This document shows, piece by piece, positions 3,799 through 56,093 of a stretch of DNA of 64,000 nt. This DNA is from a virus: IMG/VR virus record IMGVR_UViG_3300028883_000032, positions 1 to 64,000 of that record. One strand, given 5' to 3'. Made by a program: the position numbers and the translations under genes. The first letter of the stretch is position 1; the number at the start of each line of letters is the position of its first letter. Under the pieces are notes generated by a model, which saw nothing but the letters and a program-made list of their open reading frames with translations, ran no database searches and was not told the origin of the DNA.

Positions 3799-4211
3799 AA
3801 ACAGAACATTTACAGCAATTACTTGTGTCCGGACAGTTTATAGGATCTCACATGTGCCTTGCCAAAGACATAGGATCAAACGGAAATCTCTTTGGGGGTA
3901 ACATGCTAGCTTGGGCAGACGAAATGGGTGCTATTTTTGCTAAAAAGTTTACTGGAGAACCAAAGCTCGTAACTGTTCAAATGGACGCGGTTGAATTCAC
4001 TGTTCCAGTACATGAAGGCGAAATAGTTGATTTCTATGCCGCTAACCCCAAACCCGGCCATACCAGTTTAACGTTCACTCTTGTTGTTGCCAAACCGAAC
4101 AATGCCGACGGGGTAAGACAAATTGTATTTACAACGCGATTTGTTTTCGTGGCTGTCGGCGATGATGGGCACTCCAAACCAATTGAAAGGTTTGCAGAAA
4201 AGCGCCCATAG
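3795..4211 (+). CDS. YciA-like acyl-CoA thioesterase
   Basis: A 138-residue single hotdog-fold protein resembling the YciA/BFIT acyl-CoA thioesterases, which hydrolyse acyl-CoA to free acid and CoA. Visible motifs are GNLFGGNMLAWADEMGA near residue 33 (catalytic Asp in the WxDE segment), VEFTVPVHEGEIV near residue 65 and GHTSLTFTLVV near residue 90. It starts with a four-base overlap with the upstream membrane protein. Its TAG stop codon is formed by bases 8-10 of the downstream tRNA-Arg. A lipid-related role during infection is inference. Confidence 0.75.
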   Translation: MKTEHLQQLLVSGQFIGSHMCLAKDIGSNGNLFGGNMLAWADEMGAIFAKKFTGEPKLVTVQMDAVEFTVPVHEGEIVDFYAANPKPGHTSLTFTLVVAKPNNADGVRQIVFTTRFVFVAVGDDGHSKPIERFAEKRP

Positions 4212-4274
4212 TTCAGTGGTTAGAACAGCGGACTCTAAATCCGTGTGTCCTCGGTTCAAGTCCGAGTGGGCGCA
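4202..4274 (+). tRNA. tRNA-Arg(TCT)
   Basis: Acceptor GCGCCCA/TGGGCGC, anticodon loop CTCTAAA (TCT) on stem GCGGA/TCCGT, T-loop TTCAAGT. CCA is not encoded. The first ten bases overlap the end of the thioesterase gene. Confidence 0.95.
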
Positions 4275-4287
4275 CAAAGGAGACCTA

Positions 4288-38920: not shown

Positions 38921-39629
38921 ATGCTCGACCCGTTAGGTGATAGAATGAAATCTTACGAACGTGTAACTAGTTCGGTGATTGTTCCCAGAACCCCGGTTAT
39001 CTTAAGGCTTGATGGGAGATCGTTTCATACTTTTACAAAAAAAACTTGATAAACCATTTGACGAGCGAATGAGACAAGCGATGTATGCAGCAATGGAATC
39101 GCTAATGTCTAGTATATCGGGAGCCGAAATTGGATTCACACAATCCGACGAAATAAGTATTTTTGTAAAAACTTATAATAAGTTTGAAACACAAGCTTGG
39201 CATGGTGGAAAAATACAAAAAATGATATCTTCTGCTGCAAGTATTGCAACAGCGTCTTTTATACAATACTTGAGTATGTTTGAAGCCCTTCAAAAACACG
39301 CATTTACAGCAACTTTTGATTGTCGTATATTCAACTTACCATTGGAGGAAGTCGCCAATTACTTCCTATGGAGAGGAAAAGATTGTTTTCGTAACGCAGT
39401 TATGGCTTACTATTTATCACTCAACTCGCATAAATCTGCGCAAAATAAAAGCACTTCAGAACTATTGGAGTTAATTCCAAAACACAACTGGAATACTGTT
39501 GCAGATGAGTCAAAATTTGGTATTTTACTATTTAAAGACAGTGATACAACTAAACGTTCTTACTCATGCCCGATAGGAGACATGTTAAAGAACGTAAACG
39601 ATGTAGTAAATCACAGAGAAGACCAATAG
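38921..39629 (+). CDS. Thg1-like tRNA-His guanylyltransferase (frameshifted)
   Basis: Two overlapping frames together give a Thg1-family 3'-5' nucleotidyltransferase of about 235 residues, which adds G-1 to tRNA-His or repairs tRNA 5' ends. Frame one (38921-39049) has PVILRLDGRSFHTFTKK, the RxDGxxFHxF metal-binding segment; frame two continues LDKPFDERMRQAM and then GFTQSDEISIFV, the conserved SDE motif. The switch lies at a run of eight A (39037-39044): one A fewer restores a single frame. It may be an assembly error, polymerase slippage or programmed frameshifting. tRNA-His lies 600 bases downstream. Confidence 0.8.
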
Positions 39630-43559: not shown

Positions 43560-43635
43560 GGGGCCCTAGCTCAGTTGGGAGAGCGCCGGCTTTGCAAGCC
43601 GGAGGTCATCGGTTCGATCCCGATGGGCTCCACCA
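43560..43635 (+). tRNA. tRNA-Ala(TGC)
   Basis: Acceptor GGGGCCC/GGGCTCC, which contains a G3:U70 pair, the alanine identity element; anticodon loop TTTGCAA on stem CCGGC/GCCGG; encoded CCA. Confidence 0.95.
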
Positions 43636-44764: not shown

Positions 44765-46372
44765 ATGAATCCAGAAGACGAAAGAAATACTACTTATACT
44801 CTTGGAAATATCGATCAATTTAGGTTCCAAATTGAACCTAACTTCACTGTTCGAGATGTAGAGCGGGCGAGACAACAAATAAATGCACTCGCTGCCCAAC
44901 ATTGGGGTGAAAGGTTACGTACACGACAAGAAGAGATTTTTGCACAATATCTAAACAGGCCAAATACCGAAGCACCTCAACAAGAGCTGCAAGCAGACCT
45001 GATTGGAGAGCTACGTCGCAATATGGAACACCAACAAACCGTACGTGACGATATGGCAGATGCTGCCCGTTGGGCATATGACGTGGGGGTTAGAGCAGGG
45101 CAGCTTGCTCAAGAAGAACAAATTGAAGAACAAGCCGTCGATAACCCAAATTATTTTGCTACAGAAGAAGAGTATACAAGGTATTTAGAAGAGCTGGATA
45201 CGGATACGCCTCCCTTGGTTGTGGAGGCCCCAAACCCAGAATTAATAAATATAACAAATGCCCCTGAAAAAGGAGAAACGACAACGATGGCAATAAATGT
45301 GGAAATACGCACAGCGAATAAATTTTCAGATCTTCAAAGACAAAAGATCAGAGAAATCGCTTCTGACGTGTTGGCGCCAGTAGTTGGTAAAAAAATTGTG
45401 ATAGCGCACAGAGGTAAAACTCAAAAACCAATCGAAGACGGGTGTTTCCATATTCATTGTTGGTCCTCCGTAAGAGGTAGACGAGTATATACTCCGCCCA
45501 GTGAATTATGGATATTTACTGTACAAGATCGATCAAAATCTTACAAACCGTCTGGAGACGGTTTAGCACTTAAAGCTGGACGATGGTCACACAGTGAGTT
45601 GGTAGGAAATAACCTCTACATTCATCACAATATATTTGCTGATCCCAATCGCCCATCGACGTATGATCTTGAATTGTTTAAGAAAATACTTGATGCCGTT
45701 ACACGCGCATACACAGACACTACCCCAGAATTGGATGAACTGGCAAAAACGAATTATGTAAATTTCTGCTTAAAGAGGAAAGACGATTCCATTAAACAGC
45801 TGGAAGACCGTAACGCTAAGGCACGTCAAGCTTTACAAAGTTCGGTACAAGCATCTCTACAGAAAATACGTTTGGCCAAACAGTCTCAATTTGATTTAAC
45901 TCAAGCACTGAACTCCAAACCGGCAGATATGCGTAAAAAATTTGAAATTGAGTTTGAACGTTTGTTGGAACATCCAAAAATTGTAAAAGTTAGAGTAACT
46001 AGCGGCAAGTTCATGGTTGACACGGAAACTTTATACTGTACAGATCCGCGTAGTAAGAAAGTACACGAAATCGGTAAGTTTTGCATCGAAATCAATCCGA
46101 ATACAGGTTCAATACGGTGGGATAATTTAACCCGTAAAGTGGACGGTATGCGTCGCAATATGAACGGTCCACATATTTGGGCAGATGGTCAGGCATGTAT
46201 GGGAAATACAAGTAGTTCGTTTCATTCACTTATCGCTAACTACGAACTAGCAATTGCCGCCCACCTTGCCATCGAATTTGTGGAAAGTGTAAATGTCAAC
46301 GACGGGGCCGGGGAACGTATTAATAATTGGCCTTTAGCCCCCGAAAAAATGCAAGCTAAAAAGGGTAAATAA
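44765..46372 (+). CDS. E2-like ubiquitin-conjugating domain protein (catalytic Cys)
   Basis: A 535-residue protein, first gene of the ubiquitin-like operon. Residues 1-170 are helical and charged; 175-310 form a domain shared with the next gene (GDGLALK...NNLYIHHNIF); 335-370 look coiled-coil; 390-515 are E2-like: strands around FCIEINPNTGSIRWD, then NGPHIWADGQACMGN, the PH...C arrangement of bacterial E2 families, with Cys478 as the likely thioester cysteine and His470 before it, then helices. An internal ATG at 45287 behind AGGAG could yield a shorter form (residue 175 onwards). It would take the modifier from the E1 (48602) and pass it to a target. The E2 call is from motif order. Confidence 0.75.
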   Translation: MNPEDERNTTYTLGNIDQFRFQIEPNFTVRDVERARQQINALAAQHWGERLRTRQEEIFAQYLNRPNTEAPQQELQADLIGELRRNMEHQQTVRDDMADAARWAYDVGVRAGQLAQEEQIEEQAVDNPNYFATEEEYTRYLEELDTDTPPLVVEAPNPELINITNAPEKGETTTMAINVEIRTANKFSDLQRQKIREIASDVLAPVVGKKIVIAHRGKTQKPIEDGCFHIHCWSSVRGRRVYTPPSELWIFTVQDRSKSYKPSGDGLALKAGRWSHSELVGNNLYIHHNIFADPNRPSTYDLELFKKILDAVTRAYTDTTPELDELAKTNYVNFCLKRKDDSIKQLEDRNAKARQALQSSVQASLQKIRLAKQSQFDLTQALNSKPADMRKKFEIEFERLLEHPKIVKVRVTSGKFMVDTETLYCTDPRSKKVHEIGKFCIEINPNTGSIRWDNLTRKVDGMRRNMNGPHIWADGQACMGNTSSSFHSLIANYELAIAAHLAIEFVESVNVNDGAGERINNWPLAPEKMQAKKGK

Positions 46373-47734
46373 ATGTTTGATTTTACCGCACCTATATCCC
46401 CGGGTAGTGTATTTTGTTTTTTGTCTAATTTGTCAAAAAAACAACTAGATAAATTGGACAGCATGGGTGCTACTCCAATGCCTTTTGATCTTGATGGTGA
46501 ATCCGGGATTATTGTTGATGGCTCACAGATGGGTGATATAATACGTGAATTAGACCTAGACATCCTGACAACTGATGCTACTACCTATGATGGTGTATAC
46601 AACATTTTGTGGAGACCAAAAAAAGACGGTAGAGGAAAGGCAGAAGGAAACTCAAGAATTATTTTTGAGAATTCTGAAGTTTGTAGGTGGAATGGAAAAC
46701 TTCCAACCGCTGTCATGGAAAGCTCTATTGAAAGGTTTCTTCTTCCATCTTTAAGTAAAGACGTAAAGGTTCACCTATATGTTCCGCACGGGAGTAACCA
46801 TGGCTTAATAAATAATGGGGAATTTAACATATTTATTTGGTCGGGATTGGGACGAAAGGCAGCACTGACACCGAAGAAAATGTGGGGAATACCCGTTGAC
46901 TGTAAAGATAAACCGTTTGATTATTCAGGAAGCGGGTTAGCCATTTATGAATCAGGTGGAAACATCGTAGGCGAGTTAGTACAAAACAACCTCTACATTT
47001 TTCACGATCTTGTACACATGGGTACTCAGCGCGAAAAACAAATCTTCGAGCACATACTGGAAGAAGTTGTGTATCTAACACAAAACCCAGAAGCCGGTAT
47101 TGATAGGCAGGCTCAGCATTTAGCAGAAGTATTGGCCGCTGAATATCAAAATACTTATAAAGTGAGGGAACAGCAGTTAACCACAATTGAGGATGATATT
47201 CAAAGATATAAAGCCGTGCTAGTTGAGAAGATTAGAGCAGCGGATTCTGCTAAAATGATGGTTTTGGGAGCTGAAGAAGCTCTACGAGATATTCGAAGTG
47301 TGGCCAAGGAACAATTTCTGATACTGCGCAGCAACGACAAAATTGAACGTATTGAACCGTCTGGAGATTGTGTAACAATTTACACCAAACGGTTAATTTG
47401 TACTCACCCCGTAAGTCAAAAACAATACGGCATTGGAAACTTTAAAATTATTATTCATTTAACCGGTCATCCAACTATGGTTGAATGGCACAACTTGACT
47501 AGACAGAGTGATTGCCAAGCACCCCATGTTGAACTATCAGGTTATCCCGTAGCGGGAATGACGGAAGAGATGTTCTTGGAGTTACTCGGAAATTATCAAA
47601 TAGGAATAATCGGAAACTTAGCAATTCAGTTTATAGAAACGGTAGATCCTACCCATCCAACAGCTGAACGCTTGAAAAAGTTTCCCCTTCTTAAGGAATC
47701 GATAGAAACTGATGGCAAAGAAAAAACCAAATAA
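46373..47734 (+). CDS. E2-like paralogue without catalytic cysteine
   Basis: A 453-residue protein directly after the E2-like stop. Residues 130-240 match the shared middle domain (SGSGLAIYESG, VQNNLYIFHDL), followed by a coiled coil (about 245-310) and an E2-like C-terminus (GNFKIIIHLTGHPTMVEWHN, then APHVELSGYPVAGM). At the position of Cys478 in its neighbour there is Val, so it is probably not an active E2. This resembles the Ubc13/UEV type of partner pair. It overlaps the JAMM gene by 23 bases. Confidence 0.7.
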   Translation: MFDFTAPISPGSVFCFLSNLSKKQLDKLDSMGATPMPFDLDGESGIIVDGSQMGDIIRELDLDILTTDATTYDGVYNILWRPKKDGRGKAEGNSRIIFENSEVCRWNGKLPTAVMESSIERFLLPSLSKDVKVHLYVPHGSNHGLINNGEFNIFIWSGLGRKAALTPKKMWGIPVDCKDKPFDYSGSGLAIYESGGNIVGELVQNNLYIFHDLVHMGTQREKQIFEHILEEVVYLTQNPEAGIDRQAQHLAEVLAAEYQNTYKVREQQLTTIEDDIQRYKAVLVEKIRAADSAKMMVLGAEEALRDIRSVAKEQFLILRSNDKIERIEPSGDCVTIYTKRLICTHPVSQKQYGIGNFKIIIHLTGHPTMVEWHNLTRQSDCQAPHVELSGYPVAGMTEEMFLELLGNYQIGIIGNLAIQFIETVDPTHPTAERLKKFPLLKESIETDGKEKTK

Positions 47735-48605
47735 AAAAAGAGCTGCCCAGTACTTTATACCTCACGATTTTAAAGAAGAGGTAGAAGTGCTTAACCAGTC
47801 TTCTTACTGTATATGGATGACCCCGCTAGCCTTTCAAAAAATGTGGCATTTTGTCGATATTTGTAGTCAAGAAGTTGGCTGGCTTGGATCGGTTGAACGA
47901 GAGGGAAGAAATTTCATTATAACCGATGTTTTCATGTTTGAGCAAGAAGTTACAGGGACTACAACATCTCTCGATGAAGCTGGCCAGACTAAACTTATGG
48001 AAAATTTTCTGGCACAAGAGAATGGTACAGAGCTTTATAACTCTATAAGGTTCTGGGGACATAGTCATGTTAACATGGGAACAACTCCAAGTGGTCAAGA
48101 TGAAACCACAATGAAGGAATTCGAAGAAAATGGCTGTGCGTGGTTTATAAGAGGCATATTCAACAAAAGAGGACGAGCACAGTTTGATATATTTTTATAC
48201 GACGAAGGTGTACGAGTAAACGATGTTCGTTGGGCAATTCTTGTTGAAATGCCGGAATTTGATATCCGCAAAGAGTTGGAAACTGAAATACAAAAGAAGG
48301 TTACCACAAAAAAGTATGTATATCCTTCGTACGCAGGTGGATGGGGAGGAGGAAATGGCTATGACCCTACCAAGAGGACTGGGAATGGTACTGTTAACCA
48401 CTCAGTCCACCCTACTGTAGGTCAAGGGAACCGCTCATCGTCACAGCAGGGAAATGTCTGGGACGAATTTTATACGGCAAATCCAAGCGGAACTCTTGAC
48501 CTAGATGAAGACGACGAAGGAACAACCTTTTTCAACAATAATGGAGTTGTTGAAGAACTAAAACCAGAAACTAAAAAAGAGACAAAAAAGGACAAAACTA
48601 AATGA
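47712..48605 (+). CDS. JAMM/MPN metalloprotease (deubiquitinase-like)
   Basis: A 297-residue protein. The MPN domain (about residues 30-180) has Glu54 in SQEVGWLG and the complete JAMM signature WGHSHVNMGTTPSGQD: His117, His119, Ser127, Asp130. Residues 205-297 are low-complexity, Gly/Asn- then acid- and Lys-rich, perhaps a flexible tail. In bacterial ubiquitin-like operons this enzyme trims the modifier precursor or removes it from targets. The stop overlaps the E1-like start. Confidence 0.85.
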   Translation: MAKKKPNKKRAAQYFIPHDFKEEVEVLNQSSYCIWMTPLAFQKMWHFVDICSQEVGWLGSVEREGRNFIITDVFMFEQEVTGTTTSLDEAGQTKLMENFLAQENGTELYNSIRFWGHSHVNMGTTPSGQDETTMKEFEENGCAWFIRGIFNKRGRAQFDIFLYDEGVRVNDVRWAILVEMPEFDIRKELETEIQKKVTTKKYVYPSYAGGWGGGNGYDPTKRTGNGTVNHSVHPTVGQGNRSSSQQGNVWDEFYTANPSGTLDLDEDDEGTTFFNNNGVVEELKPETKKETKKDKTK

Positions 48606-49294
48606 TCGATCCTTTACGTCACTTGGCTATTTTTGATCCTGATGCCTTTGGTCCCCGACGAGTTGATGTAATAGGTGTGGGTGCAACTGGATCAAAAGTT
48701 GTGTTGGAACTTGCAAAACTCGGCATAGTTAACATTCACGTATGGGATTATGACAAAGTCGAAGAACACAATGTTCCCAACCAAGTTTTTGGAAATGATC
48801 ATGTTGGGATGTTCAAAGTTGACGCCATATCAAAAATTGTCAAGGCACAAACTGGTATTGACTTAGTAACTCATAACGAAGAAGTAGACGGTACTCAAAC
48901 TTTTGGTGATATAGTATTCTTGCTAACCGACACCATGAAAAGCCGTAAATCAATCTTTGAGAGGGGCATTAAATATAAATTTAATGTCAAATTAATGATT
49001 GAAACGCGGATGGGAAAAGACAGCGGGCAGATATACTCCATCATTCCGACAAAACCGGATCACATCAAAAATTGGGAAAATTCCCTGTTTAGCGATGATG
49101 ACAAAGATACTGAAGTATCTCTATGTGGAAGTACAATAACTGTTGGGTCAACTGCCGGAATAATTTCGGGCCTAGCGGTTTGGAAAGTCATTGAATGGCT
49201 TCAACACGAAACCGGCAAACTGGAAAATGGAATTGCTAACGAAACAATGATTGATATTTCCCCCAAGTTAGCAGTTTATCAAAACAAATATTAA
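48602..49294 (+). CDS. E1/ThiF-like activating enzyme
   Basis: A 230-residue ThiF/E1-fold protein: VDVIGVGATGSKVV (Gly25-Gly30 nucleotide loop), WDYDKVEEHNVPNQ (Asp49, Asn57, Gln61), Lys72, and Cys175 in EVSLCGST, which could form the thioester. It lacks a separate second catalytic domain, as is usual in prokaryotic E1-like enzymes. It would adenylate the modifier encoded next. ATGA overlap with the JAMM gene. Confidence 0.85.
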   Translation: MIDPLRHLAIFDPDAFGPRRVDVIGVGATGSKVVLELAKLGIVNIHVWDYDKVEEHNVPNQVFGNDHVGMFKVDAISKIVKAQTGIDLVTHNEEVDGTQTFGDIVFLLTDTMKSRKSIFERGIKYKFNVKLMIETRMGKDSGQIYSIIPTKPDHIKNWENSLFSDDDKDTEVSLCGSTITVGSTAGIISGLAVWKVIEWLQHETGKLENGIANETMIDISPKLAVYQNKY

Positions 49295-49314
49295 CTCAGG
49301 AGTAGAATTTCAAG

Positions 49315-49524
49315 ATGGAACCTATTCAAGTACGTGTAGGAACAATTCCTGGTGGAGTCTCCGAATTTGCAATCATAGATGCAACAGTTCGTGGAGCACT
49401 TACAGCAGCAGGCCTTGAGGCGGACGGTTACAAAATCAATGTAAACGGCGTGGCAGCTAACTTAGACACACCGTTACGAGATGGTGATAATGTTCTTCGT
49501 GTTCGCAAGGTTGTTGGTAACTAA
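49315..49524 (+). CDS. beta-grasp ubiquitin-like/ThiS-MoaD-like modifier
   Basis: A 69-residue protein with the beta-grasp order: hairpin IQVRVGTIPGGVSEFAI, helix TVRGALTAAGLE, then YKINVNGVAANLDTPLRDGD and VLRVRKVVGN. The NG...DTPLRDGDNV part is the classic ThiS/MoaD/Ubl ending. The C-terminus is VVGN, so a Gly is followed by one Asn instead of Gly-Gly; the JAMM enzyme might remove the last residue. Last gene of the operon; terminator ten bases later. Strong RBS (CTCAGGAG). Confidence 0.8.
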   Translation: MEPIQVRVGTIPGGVSEFAIIDATVRGALTAAGLEADGYKINVNGVAANLDTPLRDGDNVLRVRKVVGN

Positions 49525-54760: not shown

Positions 54761-55159
54761 ATGACAAAAACTGAATTTCGAGAATTGTGGAAAGCTGCAG
54801 AAGAAAGCGGATTAGATAGATTCACTGTTATCTACTTAAGTTCCGGAGCCAAACACAATGGGCTGCTAGGAGAAATACTATTCAAACAGAATAGTATAGG
54901 AAACTCATACCCGAGTGTATTTTTTTCAGGAACGGGGCAAAGAATTACTACCTCCCTCGACAAATTAGTTGCAACGGAACAAAATTTTATTCGAACTCCA
55001 AAGGAACTGCAACCTGGATTAGAAATCTTGGTTATGGCTAATGAAGGTTCATTAGATATTGTTAATGAATCAGAAGCAATAAAGAAATTACAAAAAGATC
55101 CCAAAACAAAAATATTTACGTGTTTAATACGAAAGCAAGTTGAATTAAGACTTGTGTAA
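54761..55159 (+). CDS. hypothetical protein
   Basis: A 132-residue soluble protein (MTKTEFRELWKAAEESGLDR), not recognised. Alternating hydrophobic strands suggest a beta-rich fold. It ends just before the AlaRS-like gene. Confidence 0.5.
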   Translation: MTKTEFRELWKAAEESGLDRFTVIYLSSGAKHNGLLGEILFKQNSIGNSYPSVFFSGTGQRITTSLDKLVATEQNFIRTPKELQPGLEILVMANEGSLDIVNESEAIKKLQKDPKTKIFTCLIRKQVELRLV

Positions 55160-55173
55160 TCAAGGAGATAAAA

Positions 55174-55197
55174 ATGCTGGGAGCTCTACGGGCCTAA
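55174..55197 (+). promoter_or_regulatory. possible leader peptide of AlaRS-like gene
   Basis: AAGGAGAT precedes an ATG that opens a seven-codon frame (MLGALRA) whose TAA stop overlaps the ATG of the AlaRS-like gene (TAATG). The strong ribosome binding site belongs to this frame, so the main gene is probably translated by coupling. Confidence 0.4.
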
Positions 55198-56093
55198 TGG
55201 CCCCCCACAAAGTTATTGATGTAGTACAAGAAGAGTTTTATAAAGTAAATTTAACTTTAGACAATAATTTTAGATTGTCACCCCCAGACAAAACAACAAA
55301 TTTTACAACGGCAGGAATGCAGTGGTTTAAGAACCGCTTTAATAATCCGGACGGGACAAGATGTGGTAGCAGACAATCTTGTTTACGTACAAACGATTTG
55401 TCCTTAATTGGGGACGGGACACATTTAACCTATTTTGAAATGCTGGGAAATTTTTCATTTGGAAATAACGATTATGAACAATCGGTAGAATTGTGGCACA
55501 ATATTGTTTCTCAATTAAAAATCCCAGTTACATATGTTACGGTACACCCGTCACAAAAATACCATAAGAGAGTTTGGGAGAGGTTGCATTACCCCATAAA
55601 AGAAGACGAAAGCTGCGTGTGGTCAGACGGTAATATCGGAGGATACTGTTGTGAAATGTTTGTTAATGACCTCGAAATCGGGAATCTGGTAAATACTTCT
55701 GGAGTTTCAACAGATGTGGGTTTTGGTTTTGAGAGGTTAGTACAAGTTTATGAAAACCAAACAAATATTCATGACACAACTTTGTTTGATTGCTCTTTAC
55801 CTCCTTTTGTCAGAGACCACGTTCGCGCCTTGAATGCGTTATATCTTAACGGTATAAAACCGGGAGCAAGTGGACCAAATTACTCCGCCAAACTAATACT
55901 CAGAAGAGTACTATCTCATCTTGACCCAAAATGTTATAAGTTTGGGCACTGGTTAGAACAAGAAAAACTAATTAGTGAAGATGGTAAGTACAGAGCTAAA
56001 AAACACTTTAACCGCTATGGTATTAAAGACTATGACTTTGTTAAAGCCACATTTGGTTTAACAGCCGAAGAATATGAGGAAGTACTATCGTGA
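55197..56093 (+). CDS. alanyl-tRNA synthetase catalytic-domain-like protein
   Basis: A 298-residue protein matching the N-terminal class II catalytic domain of AlaRS: FTTAGMQWFK near residue 35, QSCLRTNDL near residue 59, HLTYFEMLGNFSFG near residue 76 (motif 2), VSTDVGFGFERL near residue 175 (motif 3) and RDHVRALNALYLNGIKPG near residue 210. It lacks the editing and C-terminal domains of the 870-residue enzyme. It might charge the phage tRNA-Ala, or make Ala-adenylate for another use. The start at 55197 overlaps the short upstream frame. Confidence 0.8.
   Translation: MAPHKVIDVVQEEFYKVNLTLDNNFRLSPPDKTTNFTTAGMQWFKNRFNNPDGTRCGSRQSCLRTNDLSLIGDGTHLTYFEMLGNFSFGNNDYEQSVELWHNIVSQLKIPVTYVTVHPSQKYHKRVWERLHYPIKEDESCVWSDGNIGGYCCEMFVNDLEIGNLVNTSGVSTDVGFGFERLVQVYENQTNIHDTTLFDCSLPPFVRDHVRALNALYLNGIKPGASGPNYSAKLILRRVLSHLDPKCYKFGHWLEQEKLISEDGKYRAKKHFNRYGIKDYDFVKATFGLTAEEYEEVLS

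Follow-up and report, generated by a model that had tools for sequence, protein, structure and literature searches.

The viral gene analysed here encodes a compact, editing-free protein that descends from alanyl-tRNA synthetase (AlaRS) and has kept an intact active site. It lies in the first 64,000 nucleotides (the window) of a 206,856-base virus record, IMGVR_UViG_3300028883_000032, and the features of the locus are collected in Table 1. Our best explanation, to which we give about an even chance of being right, is that the enzyme charges tRNA-Ala and tmRNA and that a short leader upstream would control its production, by a -1 slip in relatives of the window gene that have no start codon and by translational coupling in the window itself. 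The compact AlaRS would activate alanine and load it onto both RNAs, and such charging would help the phage, whose tRNA set is nearly complete, to sustain its alanine supply.

Table 1. Features of the compact AlaRS locus and of related leaders; positions are those of the window.
Feature	Position	Strand	Basis
tRNA-Ala (TGC) with G3:U70 and encoded CCA; likely substrate	43560..43635	+	ARAGORN, acceptor-stem check
132-residue ORF without a Pfam match, ending 15 bases before the leader start	54761..55159	+	ORF list
Shine-Dalgarno AAGGAG of the leader	55162..55167	+	sequence
Leader MLGALRA and stop, main+1 frame, two Ala codons, the last right before the stop	55174..55197	+	sequence
Predicted hairpin GGGCC-TAAT-GGCCC, with leader stop and AlaRS start in the loop	55190..55203	+	RNA fold
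Compact AlaRS, 298 residues, class II catalytic domain and apparent shortened tRNA-recognition domain	55197..56093	+	Pfam, NCBIfam, PDB, model
Arginine R64 of motif 2; in E. coli R70 if Met is counted and R69 in published numbering	55386..55388	+	invariant in 102/102
Motif 3 D173-V-G-F-G-F-E-R180: alanine amino-group Asp, pocket Gly, class II Arg	55713..55736	+	D, G and R invariant in 102/102
K283-A-T-F-G287 at the site of the G3:U70-reading peptide, acidic residue lost	56043..56057	+	alignments
Viral contigs with an AAACGC leader before other small ORFs: L276-L278, L280, L281, L283, L285-L287, L289

A compact, editing-free AlaRS with an intact active site

The reading frame runs from an ATG at 55197 to a stop codon ending at 56093, and the open frame upstream reaches a TTG at 55152. 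A first-pass annotation, made from the sequence alone, had described an AlaRS catalytic domain of 298 residues at these coordinates, and AlaRS ancestry is supported by matches that far exceed chance: to Pfam tRNA-synt_2c (E = 2e-20, above the cut-off), to solved AlaRS structures in the PDB (E = 5e-14) and to NCBIfam alaS (TIGR00344; E = 1.4e-22), the last at 79.8 against 457 bits and so far under the equivalog cut-off. An AlphaFold2 model built with 31 family members as input reached a mean pLDDT of 94.7 and a pTM of 0.89. VIA-align placed all 298 of its residues on AlaRS fragments (Z 28), covering target residues 1 to ~411, the runners-up being other class II synthetases at Z about 17, and a Foldseek search agreed. 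Among viral predicted structures, the only strong matches to the model were two eukaryotic giant-virus AlaRS.

Since the protein stops at a point corresponding to E. coli residue ~411 and the editing domain PF07973 (tRNA_SAD) was found nowhere in the 206,856-base record, the editing and C-Ala domains are absent, as had been claimed. The record's only two PF01411 matches both lie within the AlaRS gene, and PF07973 returned no AlaX, the stand-alone editing domain, from it. The further claim that only the aminoacylation core is present was too narrow: the alignments, the model and the extent of the VIA-align match to AlaRS residue 411 all suggest that a compressed tRNA-recognition domain is retained at residues ~200-298.

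The first-pass annotation had proposed that an alignment be checked for lost ATP- or alanine-binding residues, and every residue examined is intact. The class II catalytic fold is present with its motif 2 and motif 3 arginines. When aligned with E. coli AlaRS, 11 catalytic or pocket positions (R70, H87, F91, M93, G95, W171, N213, V215, D236, G238 and R243 in E. coli counted with Met) are identical in all 102 distinct members compared, the window included; L023, which is mis-framed in the tree, was excluded from this count. The alanine-pocket residues W142, D173 and G175 (W170, D235 and G237 in the E. coli literature) are thus invariant in 102/102.

The compact family, of about 280-300 residues, is represented on more than 60 uncultured viral contigs and on about 50 bacterial contigs, mostly Rhizobium plasmids. 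From viral sequences, two alignment searches retrieved 61 and 72 loci, mostly overlapping sets, and an alignment search of bacteria gave 50 loci, mainly from Rhizobium and other alphaproteobacteria. The window AlaRS used as a single query retrieved no relative from viral contigs, and a further search for nearer relatives of its branch found nothing beyond the known members. In a search of cultured-phage records the only full-length match to the compact form was in the uncultured phage LR745206; the other matches were rejected, as they align to alaS genes or to unannotated records at low identity. In LR745206, a related huge phage, the neighbours of the gene are another short class II synthetase, Thg1 and an array of tRNAs with tRNA-Ala among them; this other synthetase is a 246-residue core (tRNA-synt_2b; L003 9145-9885) and the Thg1-like tRNA-His guanylyltransferase is at L003 11325-12164.

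Two groups are well supported in the tree, one small, with the window in it, and one large. The short length of the protein and the long branch of the window gene could point to a decaying, functionless remnant of a full-length alaS. Given that the catalytic residues are identical in every member compared, that third-codon-position bias was seen in all six pairs of relatives compared (the window gene being in none of the pairs), from which we conclude that the family is under purifying selection, and that one compact architecture is shared by both deep branches, we consider such decay very improbable.

The acceptor of alanine and the G3:U70-reading peptide

The tRNA-Ala gene reported at 43560 by the first-pass annotation was confirmed: its acceptor stem has 7 bp and includes G3:U70, and CCA is encoded. 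tRNAs for every one of the 20 amino acids are present in the record. A tmRNA above the Rfam cut-off lies at 150804-151169 of the record (G000; L008 11804-12167) and shares G3:U70 with the phage tRNA-Ala; its tag reads GETPVLKAA, and SmpB was not found in the record. Across the records, 25 of 27 tRNA-Ala or tmRNA calls have G3:U70, the two exceptions being 88-base calls that are possibly misnamed. tmRNA is a natural substrate of AlaRS. On this basis, which differs from the Ala-AMP route that had been suggested, the idea of a role in tagging can be kept, whereas Ala-AMP for peptide bonds found no specific support.

Other genes of tRNA metabolism in the record are a CCA-adding enzyme at 135754 (ORF list read by eye), Thg1 at 39009-39629 of the window (Pfam) and a PTH2 candidate at window 3236 whose Pfam match is under the cut-off; a search of the window genome for the PF00587 synthetase family found none. 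Elsewhere in the window we observed a ThiF/E1-like protein (48602-49294, Pfam) within a stretch, 44765-49524, that by eye also holds a JAB-like and a small ubiquitin-like ORF. A tRNA with the amber-reading anticodon CTA occurs at window 4202-4275 and in a relative's genome (G001), and ORFs at G000 138126-140673 (L007/L008) resemble by eye a NAD biosynthesis set of NAMPT, NadD/NadM and NadE.

tRNAs were found in 28 of the 34 records searched and tmRNA above the cut-off in four. Nine of the 34 were read from end to end: four contain a tRNA-Ala and five (85-245 kb) showed none, virus records of this kind being possibly incomplete, with ends that may be missing. The tRNA-Ala gene is within about 0.4 kb of the compact AlaRS gene in L003, L058 and L062. 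In one tRNA-Ala (L081 1765-1843, G001) the D arm and the T loop (TTGGAAT) are unusual and G3:U70 is intact.

The peptide Y-(D/E)-(S/T)-(H/Y)-G of AlaRS reads G3:U70 (PMC6451123). At its site most family members have (F/Y/W)(D/E)THG, the commonest forms being FDTHG, FDTMG and YDTHG, and the Asp or Glu is kept in 91 of 102 distinct members. It is missing from KATFG of the window and from HSSLG of its nearest relative, L012 (50% identical). This loss looks derived, since the rest of the window branch keeps the acid (WESCG in L267, WETFG in L217, WETHG in L218), except for L215 (WTTCG). With the acidic reader gone, the window AlaRS probably contacts the acceptor stem in another way and is less selective than its relatives. 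The first-pass suggestion of a private charging pair is doubtful: the universal G3:U70 of the phage tRNA should be readable by the host AlaRS, while the window AlaRS is among the few family members without the reading residue.

It is also conceivable, though we judge it unlikely, that alanine is activated but passed to an acceptor other than tRNA, be it a protein, a carrier or a small molecule, as in synthetase paralogs that have abandoned tRNA. Such a function would accommodate the lost reading residue in the window and L012, the occurrence of family members in genomes that yielded no tRNA-Ala and the lactyltransferase activity reported for AlaRS (PMC12143591). However, a remnant of tRNA recognition appears to be kept, most relatives retain the G3:U70 peptide, many members are accompanied by G3:U70 tRNA-Ala genes and, a weaker point, the ORF list read by eye offers no obvious carrier-protein partner near the gene. 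A further alternative is an enzyme relaxed towards G3:U70 that alanylates several tRNAs, with deliberate or tolerated mistranslation and no editing partner encoded. KATFG and HSSLG recall mammalian mitochondrial AlaRS, whose peptide is divergent and whose recognition of tRNA no longer depends on G3:U70 (PMC6451123), and neither AlaX nor an editing domain was found in 19 records. Yet G3:U70 is kept in the phage tRNA-Ala and tmRNA, and host editing enzymes may act in trans; we regard relaxed alanylation as decidedly unlikely.

The leader upstream of the AlaRS gene

Outside the marine-phage group, most of the family would express the enzyme by way of a short leader whose Ala codon is fixed. Scoring of 105 distinct members gave 63 positives; after removal of L039 as a false positive, a leader ORF in the main+1 frame was recognised in 62, the window included, while the main+2 frame, used as a control, gave two chance matches. 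The leader is found in both main branches of the tree, and about 40 members, mostly of marine-phage types, lack it and have an ordinary ATG in frame. Most leader-bearing members are without a usable AlaRS start codon; in some of the 62 an ATG, GTG or TTG does occur in frame at some upstream position, usually 5' of the leader. In the AUG-less members a start codon in the main+1 frame, with a Shine-Dalgarno sequence in most, opens a short peptide such as MSPRDA, MTPLNAM, MKRLDAF or MNTRDA.

The G and C of the leader's Ala codon are fixed in 42/42 non-redundant leaders, the third base being variable. The base preceding the P-site codon is the same as that codon's first base in 61 of 62 leaders (A-A with AAC in four cases, G-G in the others), the exception being the window; in these 61 relatives, most of them without an in-frame start, the preceding tRNA could pair again after moving back by one base. 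Across 40 alphaproteobacterial copies, the upstream sequence has an entropy of ~1.6 bits, compared with near 0 from AAGGAGG to CCTGA; conservation begins abruptly at AAGGAGG and stops just past the Ala codon, and the third-position signal of the main frame starts right after GGACGC. Neither a shared nor a stimulatory RNA structure was consistently found 3' of the slip site. Seven sources gave no T-box, riboswitch or leader RNA above the Rfam gathering cut-offs, and the 5' region of the window gave sub-threshold, apparently chance matches to RNA families.

Based on these observations, we propose that, in start-less members, the tRNA paired with the codon that precedes the Ala codon would slip by -1 while the Ala codon awaits alanyl-tRNA, re-pairing from GAC to GGA, AAC to AAA or GAA to GGA, and that low alanyl-tRNA would lead to more AlaRS synthesis. 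The leader, which is ultraconserved, would then act as a translational sensor in which scarce alanyl-tRNA sends ribosomes that wait at the fixed Ala codon into a start-less AlaRS frame, giving direct feedback on charging in huge phages and on rhizobial plasmids, and the same leader may control a few other phage genes. We advance this tentatively, at a little less than even likelihood, and we infer frameshift, sensing and coupling alike from sequence. One point that counts against the slip is that it keeps just two of three codon-anticodon contacts.

The principal competitor is stop-coupled reinitiation throughout the family, with the AlaRS starting at a CTG, TTG, ATG or other codon that overlaps the leader stop. 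We consider it possible though on balance improbable. The stop directly follows the Ala codon in 49 of the 62 leaders, as reinitiation would favour, and real start codons stand at the overlap in the window (TAATG) and in L267 (TTGATG). In several copies, however, the codon at the overlap is CTA, TTA, AAT or ATT, and the stop of the remaining 13 leaders lies 1-7 codons further on, yet the Ala codon remains fixed, as does the repeated base in front of it. Taken together, the leader features appear to be better explained by a -1 slip at the Ala codon than by reinitiation.

The window copy departs from this arrangement. Its leader is in the same frame and place as in the 61 relatives, but the re-pairing signature is missing, and the leader stop overlaps the AlaRS ATG within a predicted hairpin; translational coupling to the leader is therefore the likelier route to the enzyme here. 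The 132-residue ORF upstream is likely to be on the same transcript as the leader and AlaRS.

A scan of nine genomes for more leader-like sites returned AlaRS genes only, plus chance-looking matches. A leader with an AAACGC core precedes small non-AlaRS ORFs, again in the -1 frame, in 10 viral contigs, so the leader is not strictly AlaRS-specific. Viral matches to the GGGAC form lie before compact AlaRS only, and in the plasmid search every listed match with a named feature was a compact AlaRS or a hypothetical protein. The small ORF behind the leader of L277 has weak similarity to the G3:U70 region of AlaRS.

Significance and comparison with known systems

If our reading is correct, the window protein is among the smallest natural forms of AlaRS and would allow the minimum enzyme needed to read G3:U70 to be probed, the more so as the family offers a natural pair of groups in which the reading residue is kept or lost. 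With its leader, a tRNA synthetase would be under the control of regulatory hungry-codon frameshifting, in a simple form open to experiment. Neither a truncated phage AlaRS, its leader nor a synthetase frameshift was described in the full texts of the literature searched.

Canonical bacterial AlaRS (E. coli AlaS; PDB 3HXU, 9JC7 and 1RIQ) has the same fold, catalytic residues and order of tRNA-recognition helices. In contrast to the 876 residues of E. coli AlaS, the window AlaRS has 298, with neither an editing nor a C-Ala domain and with internal deletions in both of the domains that remain. Aminoacyl-tRNA synthetases are known from huge phages, in company with genes for tRNAs and tmRNA (Al-Shayeb et al., 2020; PMC7162821), a setting that the window phage shares; a term search of the main text of that study found no mention of alanyl-tRNA synthetase. 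The 'Alanine--tRNA ligase-related protein' of Rhizobium plasmids (for example RL_RS26335 on pRL9) belongs to the same compact family and has the same leader arrangement, and its public annotation is a plain CDS from an ATC codon with the leader unannotated. Public annotations of rhizobial copies currently begin at this implausible codon. The leader is not a T-box, having no Rfam match. In the RF2 (prfB) frameshift and in the leader peptides of amino-acid operons, a short translated stretch reports on the component that the downstream gene supplies. The compact AlaRS leader would follow the same general logic, here through a proposed -1 slip at an Ala codon and on behalf of a synthetase (leader frameshifting is reviewed in PMC5009743).
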